The position numbers were made by a program, and so were the translations under genes. A stretch of 39,097 bases of DNA, from contig NZ_JQGK01000021.1 of NCBI RefSeq assembly GCF_000743525.1, forward strand, positions 1 to 39,097, in the 5' to 3' direction. This document shows, piece after piece, positions 6,093 to 38,927 of this stretch. The DNA is from Sulfurospirillum sp. SCADC (lineage in GTDB: Bacteria; Campylobacterota; Campylobacteria; Campylobacterales; Sulfurospirillaceae). Under the pieces are notes generated by a model. The model was not told the DNA's origin and did not search any database. It was given only the letters and a program-made list of their open reading frames with translations. Numbering within the stretch: position 1 is the first letter of the stretch; each line of letters opens with the position of its first letter.

Positions 6093-6491
6093 ATGAAAAA
6101 AGTTCTGATTTTATGTACAGGAAACAGTTGCCGAAGCATTATCGCAGAAGCGTTGGTCAATGCTAAATTAGAAGGGATTGAGGCGCAAAGTGCTGGAGTA
6201 AAAGCAACGGCTAAAGTGAACGCTTATGCAAAGCAAGTTTTAGAAGAGGAAGGCATTTGGAGGGACGAATATCACTCTAAAACGCTGGATGAGGTTTTAC
6301 ATGTAAACTTTGATTTGGTCGTGACCGTGTGCGATCATGCCCATGAAACCTGTCCGATGTTTCCTAAGCCTATTCCAAAAATCCATGTCGGATTTTCCGA
6401 TCCAGATGGCAAAGATTACGGCGCGTTTATTCTTACATGTAAAGCGATTGAAGCCGAACTTTTACCGATTATCAAAGAAAAACTCTCATGA
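6093..6491 (+). CDS. arsC: Arsenate reductase, thioredoxin-coupled type, copy 2
   Basis: 132 residues, the usual ArsC length. P-loop C8-T-G-N-S-C-R14-S is followed by the resolving cysteines C80 and C87 in 'VCDHAHETCPMFPKP', the staphylococcal-type arrangement. It reduces arsenate through an intramolecular disulfide relay that needs thioredoxin. It heads an operon: its stop overlaps the next start by 4 nt. Two copies of TTACATGTAA lie inside the gene and give 'LHVNF' and 'LTCKA'. It differs enough from the arsC at 3842 to suggest separate origins rather than a recent duplication. Confidence 0.92.
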   Translation: MKKVLILCTGNSCRSIIAEALVNAKLEGIEAQSAGVKATAKVNAYAKQVLEEEGIWRDEYHSKTLDEVLHVNFDLVVTVCDHAHETCPMFPKPIPKIHVGFSDPDGKDYGAFILTCKAIEAELLPIIKEKLS

Positions 6492-7195
6492 ATGTAGAGC
6501 AGATGCTCATAGAGATGATCTCACAGTTTGGGGCATGGGCGATTGTGGCTTCCTTTGGCATCGGTCTATTAACCTCGCTCGCTCCGTGTTCCATCATTAC
6601 CCTTCCCCTGCTTGCAGGTAGTGCTTTGGGACTTTCAAAAGATCTCAGTGCCAAGCAAAAAAAAGTCTTTATTTACCAGTATTCGCTGTTATTTGTTTTA
6701 GGCTTGGTCATCAGCTTTTCACTCTTGATGCTTCTGGTTTCTAAAATGGGCATGATGCTCTCTTTAGCCCCTTTTTGGGCGTATCTGCTGGCAGCACTTG
6801 CCACATTTACGGTGGTTGCGTACGCGCTTGGATGGATTCAAGGCTTCGATAAAGAGACAGTGGCACGAAAATTTTTGAGATTTAAACTGTTGGGTGCGGT
6901 GATCATCGGGCTTATTTTTGGGCTGGTGAGCACGCCATGTGCATCCGCACCCTTGGTTGCCATCATCACCATTGCAAGTCAGAGCGGTTGGGTCTATTCG
7001 TACGCCCTTGTCTTGGCGTTTGCGTTGGGGCATGGCATGTTGCTTTTGGTGGCAGGAACCTCACTTGGTTTTACGCAAAGTGTCGTTTCAAGTCGCAAGA
7101 TCAACAAGGTGAGTCGTGTGATTAACGGCTTTTTTGTTGTGGTTTTGGTGGGGATTGGCGTTTATTTTCTCTACCAAGCGTACCGTGTATTTTAG
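6488..7195 (+). CDS. CcdA/DsbD-type transmembrane thiol-electron transporter
   Basis: 235 residues with six predicted membrane helices. The two functional cysteines of the CcdA family sit in helix 1 ('SLAPCSI', C34) and helix 4 ('VSTPCASAP', C151). Family members carry reducing power from cytoplasmic thioredoxin to periplasmic thiol proteins. Downstream lies a periplasmic thioredoxin-like lipoprotein, the natural recipient. The arsenic operon context suggests that periplasmic thiol chemistry is tied to arsenic handling. That is an inference, since these proteins also serve cytochrome c maturation. Confidence 0.85.
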   Translation: MNVEQMLIEMISQFGAWAIVASFGIGLLTSLAPCSIITLPLLAGSALGLSKDLSAKQKKVFIYQYSLLFVLGLVISFSLLMLLVSKMGMMLSLAPFWAYLLAALATFTVVAYALGWIQGFDKETVARKFLRFKLLGAVIIGLIFGLVSTPCASAPLVAIITIASQSGWVYSYALVLAFALGHGMLLLVAGTSLGFTQSVVSSRKINKVSRVINGFFVVVLVGIGVYFLYQAYRVF

Positions 7196-28664: not shown

Positions 28665-29327
28665 TCATAGGCACTTAAAGCGATATCCCACTCCTTTGAT
28701 ATTTTCGATCAAGTTCTCTAGCCCGTAACTGCGCAGGTTTTTGATGTAGGTACGCACCGTCGCATGGGTCGGCACTTCATCAAACCGCCACACCTCTTCG
28801 ATGATCCCTTCAAAACTGACCATGCGGTTTTGATGAGAGATAAAATACTCCAAAAGCTGTGCCTCTTTTTTGCGAAGTTTGTACGACGTCTCAGAGGTAA
28901 CTATCTGATAATTTTGCGGATCGTAATGAATGGTTTGAGCCAGTTTCAAAAGCGCATTGTCTTCGATGTGGTGCAACTTTTTCGTCCGCTCGATGCGCAC
29001 CAAAAGCTCTTCAAGTTCAAACGGTTTTTTGAGGTAATCCTCCGCTCCCAACGCAAACCCTTTTTTCACATCGCTGATTTGGTCGAGTGACGTAATGAAG
29101 ATGACAGGCGTAGAAATGTTGGCACTTTTGAGCGTTTTCAACAACTCAAAACCGCTCAAACTTGGAACGTTGATGTCCAAAACCAAGATGTCAAACTTGT
29201 CCTCAAAAATGGCATCAAGCGCTTCTTTACCATCGAAAAAGAGTTTTACATGTAAACCATGTTCGACTAAAAACTCTTCGATAATTTCGCTAAGAATGGG
29301 GTCGTCTTCTAGGAGTAGGATTTTCAT
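28665..29327 (-). CDS. OmpR-family response regulator
   Basis: 220 residues starting 'MKILLLEDDPILSEIIEEF'. An upstream in-frame extension lacks family similarity. The receiver domain has D51 in 'ILVLDINVPSLSGFE' and the winged-helix domain ends 'NIKGVGYRFKCL'. It is paired with the kinase downstream. Its promoter region (29328-29487) faces the end of the A/T-rich PIN operon. A palindrome copy encodes 'LHVKL'. Confidence 0.88.
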   Translation of the reverse strand: MKILLLEDDPILSEIIEEFLVEHGLHVKLFFDGKEALDAIFEDKFDILVLDINVPSLSGFELLKTLKSANISTPVIFITSLDQISDVKKGFALGAEDYLKKPFELEELLVRIERTKKLHHIEDNALLKLAQTIHYDPQNYQIVTSETSYKLRKKEAQLLEYFISHQNRMVSFEGIIEEVWRFDEVPTHATVRTYIKNLRSYGLENLIENIKGVGYRFKCL

Positions 29328-29418
29328 AAAGGCATTATACATGAAATCTATATAAGGTGTTTTTGAAACTGTTTGTAGAGCGAACTCCAGTCGCTTCATA
29401 AGTTAAATTTTGAGGGAT

Positions 29419-29440
29419 AAGTGGCTAGAAATAGCCACTT
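29419..29440 (-). terminator. Hairpin after the PIN operon
   Basis: A perfect 9-bp stem AAGTGGCTA / TAGCCACTT closes a 4-nt loop, 48 nt after the PIN gene stop. On the minus strand no T tract follows. On the plus strand TTAGATTTTAT does. It probably insulates the PIN operon from the two-component system. Confidence 0.45.
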
Positions 29441-29487
29441 TTAGATTTTATATGTAAAGGTTTTAGAATCTGTATTAGAGTTGGATA

Positions 29488-30018
29488 CTAATGTGCTAAG
29501 TACCATGTAATATCAATGCCTAAATTTTTGAAGTCGTTATCATCACTTAATAATTTAAAATTCTTTTTTTGTACTGTATCGGCAATAATTAAGTCATTGA
29601 AATCACTTTGGTTATGTTTTGAAAGCATTTCGATAAAATTAAATTGTGCAAAATCATCATTAACATGATTTGCAAATTGAAGAAATTTTTTCATTTCTTT
29701 GAGCACAATTTCAAGAGTCCTTTTATATTGTGGGCTAGGTCTATAGTCTCGTTTAAAATTCTTTTTTCCATCTATATTAAAATTACGGTCAAAATCAAGG
29801 CGCATACATCTATTAATAAATTCAGAAATAACCGTAGCATTAATATAAAGTTTACAATGCTTTTCAACCAGTTTTTCAAAAATTGCTGAATATTTTTCAA
29901 CTTGATATTGTTTAGAACTTACAAATGAAGGAGAAAACAAAAAAATTAAAATATTTGTATCAATAAATACCTGATCTTGTGCATTAATTTTATAAATTAG
30001 TGGTGCGTTATCAGTCAT
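29488..30018 (-). CDS. PIN-domain ribonuclease-like protein
   Basis: 176 residues. The PIN fold acidic residues are visible: D20 in 'VFIDTNILIFLF', E in 'ATVISEFINR' (about 66), and D residues in 'SDFNDLIIADTVQ' and 'LLSDDNDF' near the C terminus. PIN proteins are usually metal-dependent RNases and often toxins. No classical VapB-type antitoxin lies next to it. Instead its start overlaps the stop of the DUF4325 gene by 8 nt (ATGACTGA), implying translational coupling. Base composition is distinctly A/T-richer than the flanking genes and the gene carries no chromosomal palindrome, both signs of transfer. Confidence 0.85.
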   Translation of the reverse strand: MTDNAPLIYKINAQDQVFIDTNILIFLFSPSFVSSKQYQVEKYSAIFEKLVEKHCKLYINATVISEFINRCMRLDFDRNFNIDGKKNFKRDYRPSPQYKRTLEIVLKEMKKFLQFANHVNDDFAQFNFIEMLSKHNQSDFNDLIIADTVQKKNFKLLSDDNDFKNLGIDITWYLAH

Positions 30019-30364
30019 TTAGAATATCCATTTGAATTTTTTCACTTCTTGTTATGTCTTTATAATGGCTTTTTGCTGTTGGGATCACTTTCTCTTTTAA
30101 TAATTGTAAATCATCGCTGTCAATTTTTATGTATTCAATTGCATTATCTAATATTTCCCAATTACTAAATTTTTCATATAGTTTACCTATACTTTCATTT
30201 AGAAAGTGAGAAATAAGAATATCAATATCTTCAAAAGATAGTTGTACCTTTTGAACTTTTTCTTGTTTTAATAAATTGTATAAAACTAAAAAAAGTTTTT
30301 GTCCATCTTCTGTAGACATTGCTATATTTTTTGAAATAACATCTTTTACACTAACTGTTTGCAT
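30011..30364 (-). CDS. STAS-like DUF4325 protein
   Basis: 117 residues beginning 'MQTVSVKDVIS', with GGAGGAA 7-8 nt upstream; a longer frame has no support. 'VQLSFEDIDILISHFLNESIGKLYEKF' (quoted in part) resembles the STAS-like DUF4325 fold, in which a strand-loop-helix with a conserved F-x-N/D-E-x-x-G patch recalls anti-anti-sigma proteins. It is sandwiched between, and overlaps, an ATPase gene (by 14 nt) and a PIN nuclease gene (by 8 nt). It is probably the middle partner of a three-protein switch. Function unproven. Confidence 0.7.
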   Translation of the reverse strand: MQTVSVKDVISKNIAMSTEDGQKLFLVLYNLLKQEKVQKVQLSFEDIDILISHFLNESIGKLYEKFSNWEILDNAIEYIKIDSDDLQLLKEKVIPTAKSHYKDITRSEKIQMDILND

Positions 30365-31277
30365 TTTTATGTTCCTCCTGCAAAAAATAGTATTGATTAC
30401 TTTGAGTGTTGAGTTCAATGCTTATTAAAGTTCCTTCAAATGAGCTTTCTAGTGTTTTAGATACTTCAATACCATCTTTGATAGAATAATACCCATCATT
30501 AGATATAATTTCAATACTCCCTTCACTAATTTTTATAAAATCCATTAAAAGACTAAGTCCTAATCCACCTTTTCCTGTTGTTGAATGTGTATCTTGCAAA
30601 GCCCATTGAATTGCTTCATCTCCACGCAGTGATTGAAATTTTTTGCCGAAAAGCTTCTCTGTGGTAGATCGGTTTTTAATAAATTGTTTGAAAAGGTAAC
30701 GATTGACATTGGTTTTAATTGTAACACCATTGTCAACGATAGTAAAATTAAATTTTTCGTTACTTGGATAAAATTGTCCAGAACAAAAAAGACCTAGAGC
30801 ACTTTCGCTATGTCGAAAAACATTTGAAAATAATTCAAGAATTTTTTGTAAAATCTTATTGAGTAGTTTTGGAGATAAATTAGCAACTTTCCCTGTGAAT
30901 TGTTGAATAAAGTATTGATGAAATTCTTGTAATTGTAAATCATAATTTGCTAAAGGAATATTTGTATATCTAATCATAGTTTTGAAAGTGTCTTTTGCGT
31001 CTTGTTCTTTCATGAAAGCAGACAAAAAGCCTATTTTTCTCATGGATATTAAAACGGTCTGTCTCCTTGGCAGAATAAGTTGTATTTGTATATCACGATT
31101 TTTGACTATTTCAAGTCCCATACCAATAATTGAGAGATAATGATTACGAACGAAAGAAGCATTTTCAAAATCTATCCGTAGTATTGCATTTGTAGCAATA
31201 TTTATAATTTGTTCAAAATAATCTATTGCTTCAAACAGAGAATTAACTTTATTGATTGGGACAGTCATAACTTTCAT
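30351..31277 (-). CDS. GHKL (histidine-kinase-type) ATPase without phosphoacceptor, STAS-like N terminus
   Basis: 308 residues. Residues about 30-110 have an alternating strand/helix pattern reminiscent of a STAS-like domain ('ILRIDFENASFVRNHY', 'IQIQLILPRRQTVLISM'). Residues about 135-295 form an HATPase_c domain: N box 'ELFSNVFRHSES', G1 'TIVDNGVTI', G2 'GKGGLGLSLLMDFI'. There is no membrane helix and no kinase H box, so it looks like an RsbW/SpoIIAB-type or MORC/Hsp90-like regulator rather than a sensor kinase. A/T-rich; first gene of a three-gene overlapped operon. The second ATG (31268) is an alternative start. Confidence 0.75.
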   Translation of the reverse strand: MKVMTVPINKVNSLFEAIDYFEQIINIATNAILRIDFENASFVRNHYLSIIGMGLEIVKNRDIQIQLILPRRQTVLISMRKIGFLSAFMKEQDAKDTFKTMIRYTNIPLANYDLQLQEFHQYFIQQFTGKVANLSPKLLNKILQKILELFSNVFRHSESALGLFCSGQFYPSNEKFNFTIVDNGVTIKTNVNRYLFKQFIKNRSTTEKLFGKKFQSLRGDEAIQWALQDTHSTTGKGGLGLSLLMDFIKISEGSIEIISNDGYYSIKDGIEVSKTLESSFEGTLISIELNTQSNQYYFLQEEHKNANS

Positions 31278-31450
31278 GTGTTACTACTTTAAATTATTAA
31301 ATTTAATCAATTGATTTTAACAGAGATAGAGTTAAATCGTTCTTTAATGTATATCATTGTTTTTACATGTAAATTTCTAGCACAACCCGCTCCACAAATA
31401 TTCCACACACGCCCTCTATACTTTCCTTATAACTTTACAAGGAGTGCGTG

Positions 31451-37132: not shown

Positions 37133-38845
37133 CTAAGAAATCGAATTGTGCGTAAAAATCGAATTACTATTTTCTACTAAATCGAGTTTGTTGTTTAAAT
37201 CATATCTTGATTTGGATGATTTAAAATAACCATTATGAGAATAGGTAAGAGACTTATTTTCAAAAAGCTGTTTTTCTGTCTCTGTAATTTCTTTGATGGC
37301 CTGACAAACTTTGTCATAACTGTTTTGAAAATCCTCATTAAGTTTATATAAGCCGTATGAAATCAGCTCATCTGCATAATTTACAAAATCATTTACTGGT
37401 GTTTTTTCATTTCTTTTATCTACAACAAATTTATATATTTTATATGCTGCTAAAAGTTGCTTATATATAAGGGAATCTTTTTCACCATTAAATAATTTAT
37501 GCAGTTTATGGTTTTTATCAATAGTAGAATCATATATTTCTTCTAGTATTTTGGATTTAGAATTTTTTGCAACTTCTGGCATTTCATAAAATGTTGCATA
37601 CCAAAATTTGAGCACCATATCACTGTGAATTGATTCATTTAGATTTTTACTAAAATTGTTTTCAAAAGTATCACCTCTTTTTGCAAGGTAACCGATTTGG
37701 TTCAATTCAAAAAGTGTCTTTGTGTATGTATTAAAATCTCTATTACTAATTTTATCTCTAAAATTTATTGGAGACTGGGTATTTGTAGCGTCTGTTATTT
37801 TGTCTATAATTTCTGGATCACTTGTCTCATATAATCTTATAAGCACATATATTTCATCTAACTTTGTTCTATCTTGTTGATAAATATCATAAATAACATT
37901 TGTTGTTTGTAAACCATTAACGATAACGGGATTTTTTGTTTCAATTGGATAATAACCAGCTTGCATTTCTCTTGGTATTTTCATTTGTTCTGATATGATT
38001 GTAATACCATTATTTAGAAAAGGGAAGTATTCAGCAAAATCACTTTCTATTGTATCTTTTATATTTTTATTTGTTTTATTGTATTTTAAAAAGCCTCTAA
38101 TATTATCACTAAAAACAGTATCTATACGCTTGTTAATACTTTTTTCTTCATCTAGTAACTTGCACAATTCTAAAGCTCTAAGCCTAAAATTTATAGCTTT
38201 AATATTTTGAATTTGAAATGATATTATAGCTTGTGGGTCATGTTTTAAAGAAATATTTGATTTTTCTGCCATAAAACTAAATTTAACATCTTTTCGCTTT
38301 TTATTCTCAGATACCAAATTATCTATCTTGTCATAAAGGTCATCAATATCATATATTTTTAAATTTTCATTTTCATCAAGATGTCTTGTAATGAGATCAT
38401 CATGTTGTTTCTCTTTTTCTCCACCAAAAATAAAATAGAGTTTTGTATCAACTATTTTTCCAGAAGAAACTATATCTTTATATTTTACAAGGGCTGCATT
38501 CACTTTTGTGTTTAATGGTAAATTTGTACTGTTATCGTAAACAAAAATATTTCTGTAGTCATTGACAAATTTAGATAAAACATTATCACCTAAACTTTTG
38601 CCATGTTTTATCTGAAATATATGCATGGTACATTCGTTTTCATCTTCATCAATATAAATACCATCCATACCACCATCATGGCTTCCTGTGCCGTTTTCTA
38701 TTGTACTAATATTTTGCATTACTTCGTCAAAACTTTGATCTAAAAATGCAGATATGCAAAGTATTTCAAATGCTAAATCTTCAGATAGCTCAAACTTGAT
38801 TTTTATTCTATCAATGTATCCACCAATAAACAATTCTTTATTCAT
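37133..38845 (-). CDS. AIPR-family protein (abortive infection / phage resistance nuclease)
   Basis: About 570 residues from the ATG with AAAGG upstream; an upstream TTG (38869) is an alternative start. The N-terminal part has a PD-(D/E)xK-like pattern: D61 in 'SHDGGMDGIYI' and Q78-x-K80 in 'MHIFQIKHG'. The central AIPR block is 'FPFLNNGITIISEQM', 'NPVIVNGLQTTNVIYDIY' and 'ATNTQSPINFRDKIS'. AIPR proteins are linked to abortive phage infection in lactococci and usually stand alone or beside restriction genes. The composition is A/T-rich with no chromosomal palindrome, suggesting transfer. Cleavage activity is inferred. Confidence 0.85.
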   Translation of the reverse strand: MNKELFIGGYIDRIKIKFELSEDLAFEILCISAFLDQSFDEVMQNISTIENGTGSHDGGMDGIYIDEDENECTMHIFQIKHGKSLGDNVLSKFVNDYRNIFVYDNSTNLPLNTKVNAALVKYKDIVSSGKIVDTKLYFIFGGEKEKQHDDLITRHLDENENLKIYDIDDLYDKIDNLVSENKKRKDVKFSFMAEKSNISLKHDPQAIISFQIQNIKAINFRLRALELCKLLDEEKSINKRIDTVFSDNIRGFLKYNKTNKNIKDTIESDFAEYFPFLNNGITIISEQMKIPREMQAGYYPIETKNPVIVNGLQTTNVIYDIYQQDRTKLDEIYVLIRLYETSDPEIIDKITDATNTQSPINFRDKISNRDFNTYTKTLFELNQIGYLAKRGDTFENNFSKNLNESIHSDMVLKFWYATFYEMPEVAKNSKSKILEEIYDSTIDKNHKLHKLFNGEKDSLIYKQLLAAYKIYKFVVDKRNEKTPVNDFVNYADELISYGLYKLNEDFQNSYDKVCQAIKEITETEKQLFENKSLTYSHNGYFKSSKSRYDLNNKLDLVENSNSIFTHNSIS

Positions 38846-38927
38846 GAAACTAGCCTTTTTAGTAATCAAATATTAGAAAATAGTATAGCATAATATGCTA
38901 TTTATCTTGGAATAGATAGGACTCTCA

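Follow-up and report, generated by a model that had tools for sequence, protein, structure and literature searches.

A probable vapKSC operon of Sulfurospirillum sp. SCADC located at a chromosomal hotspot

Results

Genes of the locus

The window analysed here, 39,097 nt of Sulfurospirillum sp. SCADC (contig NZ_JQGK01000021.1), contains three overlapping genes on the reverse strand, which are named below after their homologues vapK, vapS and vapC. The first (30351-31277, 308 aa) encodes a STAS domain followed by a SpoIIAB/RsbW-like GHKL kinase domain, the second (30011-30364, 117 aa) a DUF4325 STAS-like protein and the third (29488-30018, 176 aa) a predicted PIN-domain RNase. For the vapS homologue the ATG was taken as the start codon, while the ORF lister begins at an upstream TTG. 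The first two genes overlap by 14 nt (30351-30364) and the last two by 8 nt (30011-30018), and their GC content is 25-29 % compared to 41-49 % in most of the flanking genes; the overlaps and the A/T-richness agree with an earlier note on this DNA. A hairpin with a 9-bp stem (29419-29440), approximately 48 bp past the vapC stop codon, is a possible terminator, its T-run having been scored on the plus strand only.

The earlier note had also named the families as a GHKL ATPase without an H box, DUF4325 and PIN, and the Pfam searches bore this out. The first protein matched HATPase_c (E 1e-4, just under the family cut-off) and, over its full length, phrog_3364 (E 3e-38), and no HisKA was found in it by the Pfam search. 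The second and third proteins matched DUF4325 (E 1.3e-11) and PIN (E 1.2e-8), respectively. There was no HTH family match in the VapK or the VapS homologue in the same search.

Homology to VapKSC

VapKSC was described by Chambers et al. (EMBO J, 9 June 2026; PMC13373217) as an anti-phage system related to CapK/CapS. It consists of the STAS-GHKL kinase VapK, the STAS antitoxin VapS, with a conserved Ser/Thr (S48) and a C-terminal helix, and the PIN toxin VapC (PMC13373217). The Escherichia VapC is toxic and its D28A mutant harmless. VapS binds VapC and neutralises its toxicity, both being lost with the phosphomimic S48E, and neutralisation is also abolished by removal of the C-terminus (PMC13373217). 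The Escherichia vapKSC protects E. coli against phage Bas42 by approximately 2 log, and the protection disappears with VapC D28A, VapS S48A or VapK F54A; the kinase activity of VapK and its activation by ssDNA were predicted in the same study (PMC13373217).

The three genes of the window have the same layout, i.e. STAS-GHKL kinase, STAS protein and PIN protein in the same order. When the DUF4325 profile was compared with the PDB, the Escherichia VapS (9z7o_A) was matched over the VapS length with E 6e-24, and the PIN profile had a sole match in the whole PDB, the Escherichia VapC (9z7o_C, E 1e-12). With the PIN sequence of the window alone the E value against 9z7o_C was 0.54, so that this homology link depends on the profile. 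The reverse search with the VapS sequence recovered three of the trio loci described below, from Deinococcus, a gut phage and phage Javan172 (L016, L018 and L087). Based on these profile matches and the reverse search, we are highly confident that the trio is a vapKSC operon, in which VapS would hold VapC and VapK would free it by phosphorylation. The earlier note had considered the module possibly new; it is of a kind already published as VapKSC, and the window contains a further member. PADLOC-DB 2023 has no model covering the trio, because VapKSC was described later. Two DefensePredictor candidates were also considered and rejected (PMC13092281): DS-3 is a single split-PIN protein and DS-5 a pair of PIN and DUF5830/AcrIF4-like proteins, neither being the trio.

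Predicted folds and conserved residues

The predicted model of the VapK homologue (mean pLDDT 85) has two domains, a STAS domain at residues ~1-90 and a kinase domain at ~98-293. Residues 98-293 superimposed on SpoIIAB with a VIA Z of 13.1 (rmsd 2.8, 134 of 140 residues), and five SpoIIAB entries headed the ranking of this domain, other GHKL proteins having Z of ~8-10. Residues 1-89 matched RsbV with a Z of 10.2 and an rmsd of 2.1. The earlier description as a soluble GHKL ATPase was thus right as to the family but missed the N-terminal STAS domain, which lies in the region predicted to be involved in ssDNA activation. The kinase motifs were located at E148, N152, H156, D182 and G184, with a GGLGL motif; the E, N, H and D residues are invariant in all 17 trios compared and the ATP motifs are kept. 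F42 is a candidate equivalent of the ssDNA site F54 of VapK and W68 of CapK, this column being F or W in 15 of 17 proteins. By analogy with the Escherichia system, the VapK homologue would be a kinase activated by ssDNA. In 16 of the 17 trios the phospho-position of its own STAS domain is occupied by Asn, Ala, Val or His, and in one by Ser, so this domain can hardly be a substrate as judged from the alignment. When all nine GHKL proteins were aligned, the divergence was too great for a degenerate-pattern search.

The model of the DUF4325 protein (pLDDT 87) ends in a single long helix (residues 83-116). Compared to RsbV, SpoIIAA and RsbS it gave a VIA Z of 6.8-7.3, which is moderate and similar to that for SLC26 STAS domains. 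These STAS matches came from the second aligner, as Foldseek gave weak matches only (M17 aminopeptidase rows). The predicted phospho-acceptor is S52 (codon 30211-30209), and the site, which aligns with VapS S48, is Ser or Thr in 17/17 PIN-linked proteins. S52 also aligns ungapped with the SpoIIAA residue that we take to be Ser58.

The catalytic acids of the PIN protein, which the earlier note had left to be checked, are present and conserved: D20, E66, D139, D142, D160 and D162 are invariant in 16-17 of 17 copies, the exception being one copy truncated at the start. D20 falls in an aligned DTN motif, the catalytic acid of the Escherichia VapC being D28. The VapC homologue would be expected, by analogy with the Escherichia protein, to be a toxic RNase.

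Distribution, mobility and insertion site

The trio, with its gene order preserved, was found at 17 loci, the window included, with 21-64 % identity to the window proteins, and since the order recurs in this way the arrangement is not due to chance. The conserved co-occurrence and order, which the earlier note had proposed as a check, were therefore found also in other genomes. The loci comprise those of seven Campylobacterota genomes out of 397 sampled (the window's among them), further Campylobacterota and one Thiobacillus MAG from a genome collection, three from a survey of 398 Campylobacterota genomes, and those of Deinococcus gobiensis plasmid P5, a gut phage contig and the Streptococcus temperate phage Javan172. 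The trio thus spans Campylobacterota, Pseudomonadota, a Deinococcus plasmid and a Streptococcus prophage. The distances of the three proteins correlated strongly with each other (Mantel r 0.84-0.89, reached in 0 of 5000 permutations), and in 387 Campylobacterota genomes all seven matches to the PIN family were within the trio.

In Javan172 (L087, MK448860.1) the trio is flanked by the repressor region and the integrase, and its PIN gene (6155-6685) is unannotated in the record. In genome G238 (L022/L061) a stop codon interrupts the PIN frame, and in G127 (L021) the C-terminus of the GHKL kinase is broken; the partner genes are intact in both. No relative was detected when IMG/VR was scanned with four GHKL queries, although the trio occurs in deposited phage records, so it is either rare among these viruses or has diverged beyond the reach of the scan.

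In the sister genome G208 the two flanking sequences adjoin, the aligned parts being separated by 5 bp (window 29341|31391). This comparison shows that the window holds an exact insertion of 2,049 bp, an A/T-rich island (29342-31390) with the trio as its sole content. The site lies between a response-regulator gene (listed as 28665-29399, with a better start at ~29328) and a YtkA gene (31448). At the corresponding loci compared within the genus (L108-L114) there are toxin-type modules, GHKL/DUF4325 pairs, the trio or nothing. In G379 the site is occupied by a DarT protein (PF14487, E 3e-14) and, after it, a macrodomain protein; G807 has an HTH/IrrE and a DUF4411 protein there, and G056 and G799 a convergent GHKL/DUF4325 pair. 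The exact 2-kb insertion between conserved flanks, and the presence of the trio on the Deinococcus plasmid and in temperate phages, would fit a plain addiction module maintaining a mobile island, with no role in phage defence. However, a plain type II toxin-antitoxin pair needs no kinase, whereas the ATP motifs are retained in every trio, and the homologue protects against phage Bas42 (PMC13373217). We thus consider mere maintenance unlikely.

Neighbouring restriction systems

The earlier note had proposed to look for proximity to defence islands. Four of the 17 trios adjoin or sit within restriction-modification (R-M) operons, a descriptive count without a background rate; no R-M gene directly adjoins the others, the window's included, in the annotated stretches. 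The trio is located between hsdS and hsdR in L035 and L038, overlaps a type IIG enzyme by 4 nt in L023 and follows type III mod/res genes in L054. In L026 it is a related GHKL/DUF4325 pair that lies between hsdS and hsdR. The window itself carries a gene of the AIPR (abortive infection) family at 37133-38869 (E 2e-48), 5.9 kb from the trio. In the published census of vapKSC, 36 % of 289 loci were within 10 kb of another immune gene (PMC13373217).

Since four trios touch or sit within R-M operons, the signal sensed by the kinase might not be ssDNA but the breakdown of a linked restriction system, with the PIN RNase as a second line, much as PrrC is silenced by its linked type I R-M enzyme and released by phage Stp (PMC2610378). 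We regard this as quite improbable: the remaining trios have no R-M direct neighbour in the annotated stretches, the types of R-M system differ, so that there is no common physical partner, and cutting by R-M enzymes also damages DNA, which fits the ssDNA model equally well (PMC13373217). The occurrence of the trio within several kinds of restriction operon supports the idea of a damage-triggered second line behind restriction.

Related branches without the PIN gene

The DUF4325 proteins of 397 Campylobacterota genomes were surveyed for branch classes. Ten loci have a VapK-like kinase and a DUF4325 protein together with a small membrane-anchored protein in place of PIN (L066, L077, L079, L080, L081, L082, L085, L086, L032 and L128, the last in Helicobacter prophage BK070146). 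The third gene encodes 96-194 aa with an N-terminal hydrophobic segment, which is present in 9 % of ORFs of the same size (45/506). A clear mutual relationship (E 1e-12 or better) was seen for six of these proteins, and two or more related families were noted among the whole set. Most of the kinases of this branch have a Lys/Arg-rich N-terminal extension. A Francisella phage carries, after its CI repressor, ORFs Fhv_0046-0048, annotated as a 293 aa hypothetical protein, a 112 aa DUF4325 protein and a 125 aa transmembrane protein (PMC7924643), which looks like the same gene set. The main text of the VapKSC paper contains neither 'transmembrane' nor 'DUF4325' (PMC13373217).

Stand-alone kinase/DUF4325 pairs mostly have Gln or His at the phospho-acceptor position. 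Such pairs, often convergent and without a third gene, were seen at L058, L059, L068, L071-L074, L029 and L111. In two S. agalactiae phages (L088, L089) the pair is bordered by the lysin gene on one side and by the phage end or integrase on the other, where accessory genes are typically located, and in G056 (L070) an HTH-like start, HATPase and DUF4325 are fused in a single protein.

Discussion

For the Sulfurospirillum locus, the present analysis shows the gene architecture and homology, the conserved motifs and folds, and the mobility and distribution of the trio. VapKSC is thereby confirmed for a remote group of bacteria, and located at a chromosomal hotspot in which DarT-macrodomain and other toxin-type modules can take its place. 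The trio is very probably a compact kinase-antitoxin-RNase switch, which shuts down the cell when damage or phage attack is sensed. The earlier note had read it as a partner switch that holds or releases a PIN toxin, in a defence or toxin-antitoxin system, and this reading matches the experiments on the homologous vapKSC (PMC13373217).

We propose that in a healthy cell VapS (30011-30364) would use its STAS domain and C-terminal helix to bind the PIN RNase VapC (29488-30018) and keep it off RNA. DNA damage or phage replication would generate single-stranded DNA, which would presumably be bound by VapK (30351-31277) between its STAS and its GHKL domain. VapK would then phosphorylate VapS at S52, resulting in the release of VapC, and free VapC would cleave RNA of the cell, most likely tRNA or rRNA, so that growth stops and the phage with it. 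For the window locus we infer the kinase activity, the ssDNA trigger, the RNA target and the phage defence from the homologous system.

The membrane-protein branch suggests that the same kinase switch drives other outputs, and is in our opinion the most interesting open lead. VapKS may be a general phospho-switch cassette with exchangeable outputs, either a PIN RNase or a membrane-anchored protein, with the stand-alone pairs perhaps as a third kind; we put this forward tentatively, with our doubts slightly the heavier. The membrane-anchored protein could act on the membrane as an effector or serve there as a sensor, and the stand-alone pairs may be a third kind that works differently.

As regards known systems, the trio shares with SpoIIAB/SpoIIAA and RsbW/RsbV the kinase fold, both STAS folds and the position of the phospho-site. 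However, the kinase of the window is fused to a STAS domain and the target would be an RNase instead of a sigma factor, the third gene encoding a PIN protein in all 17 loci. Non-sigma output of a partner switch is known from SiaABCD of Pseudomonas aeruginosa (PMC7647112), which has a diguanylate cyclase as the output and includes the phosphatase SiaA. As in VapBC, a PIN RNase toxin would be held by an antitoxin encoded in an overlapping operon, but the partner of the PIN protein is the DUF4325/VapS homologue, a STAS protein presumably controlled by phosphorylation, and not a DNA-binding VapB. PrrC of EcoprrI is likewise a phage-defence RNase encoded inside an hsd operon, as the trios of L035 and L038 are; it is an unrelated nuclease with a fused ABC ATPase and is activated by the loss of R-M control.

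In CapK/CapS a STAS-GHKL kinase also acts on a STAS partner at the equivalent serine (PMC13373217), but this system differs by the HTH of CapK and the DNA-binding wHTH of CapS, and its output is transcription of an immune operon. That the pair in the window is such a transcription regulator, with the PIN gene a bystander, is hardly credible even though the related CapK/CapS act as a repressor switch (PMC13373217), since the VapK homologue lacks the HTH and the VapS homologue, ending in one long helix, the wHTH, and the PIN family was confined to the trio in the genomes sampled.

VapKSC of Escherichia sp. E4736 (PDB 9z7o) shares with the window the gene order, a STAS-GHKL kinase without HTH, a STAS antitoxin with a conserved Ser/Thr and a C-terminal helix, a PIN RNase with conserved acids, and profile homology for both VapS and VapC. 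The window operon differs in its remote sequence, in its Campylobacterota host and in its site, a hotspot flanked by a two-component system and an efflux operon.
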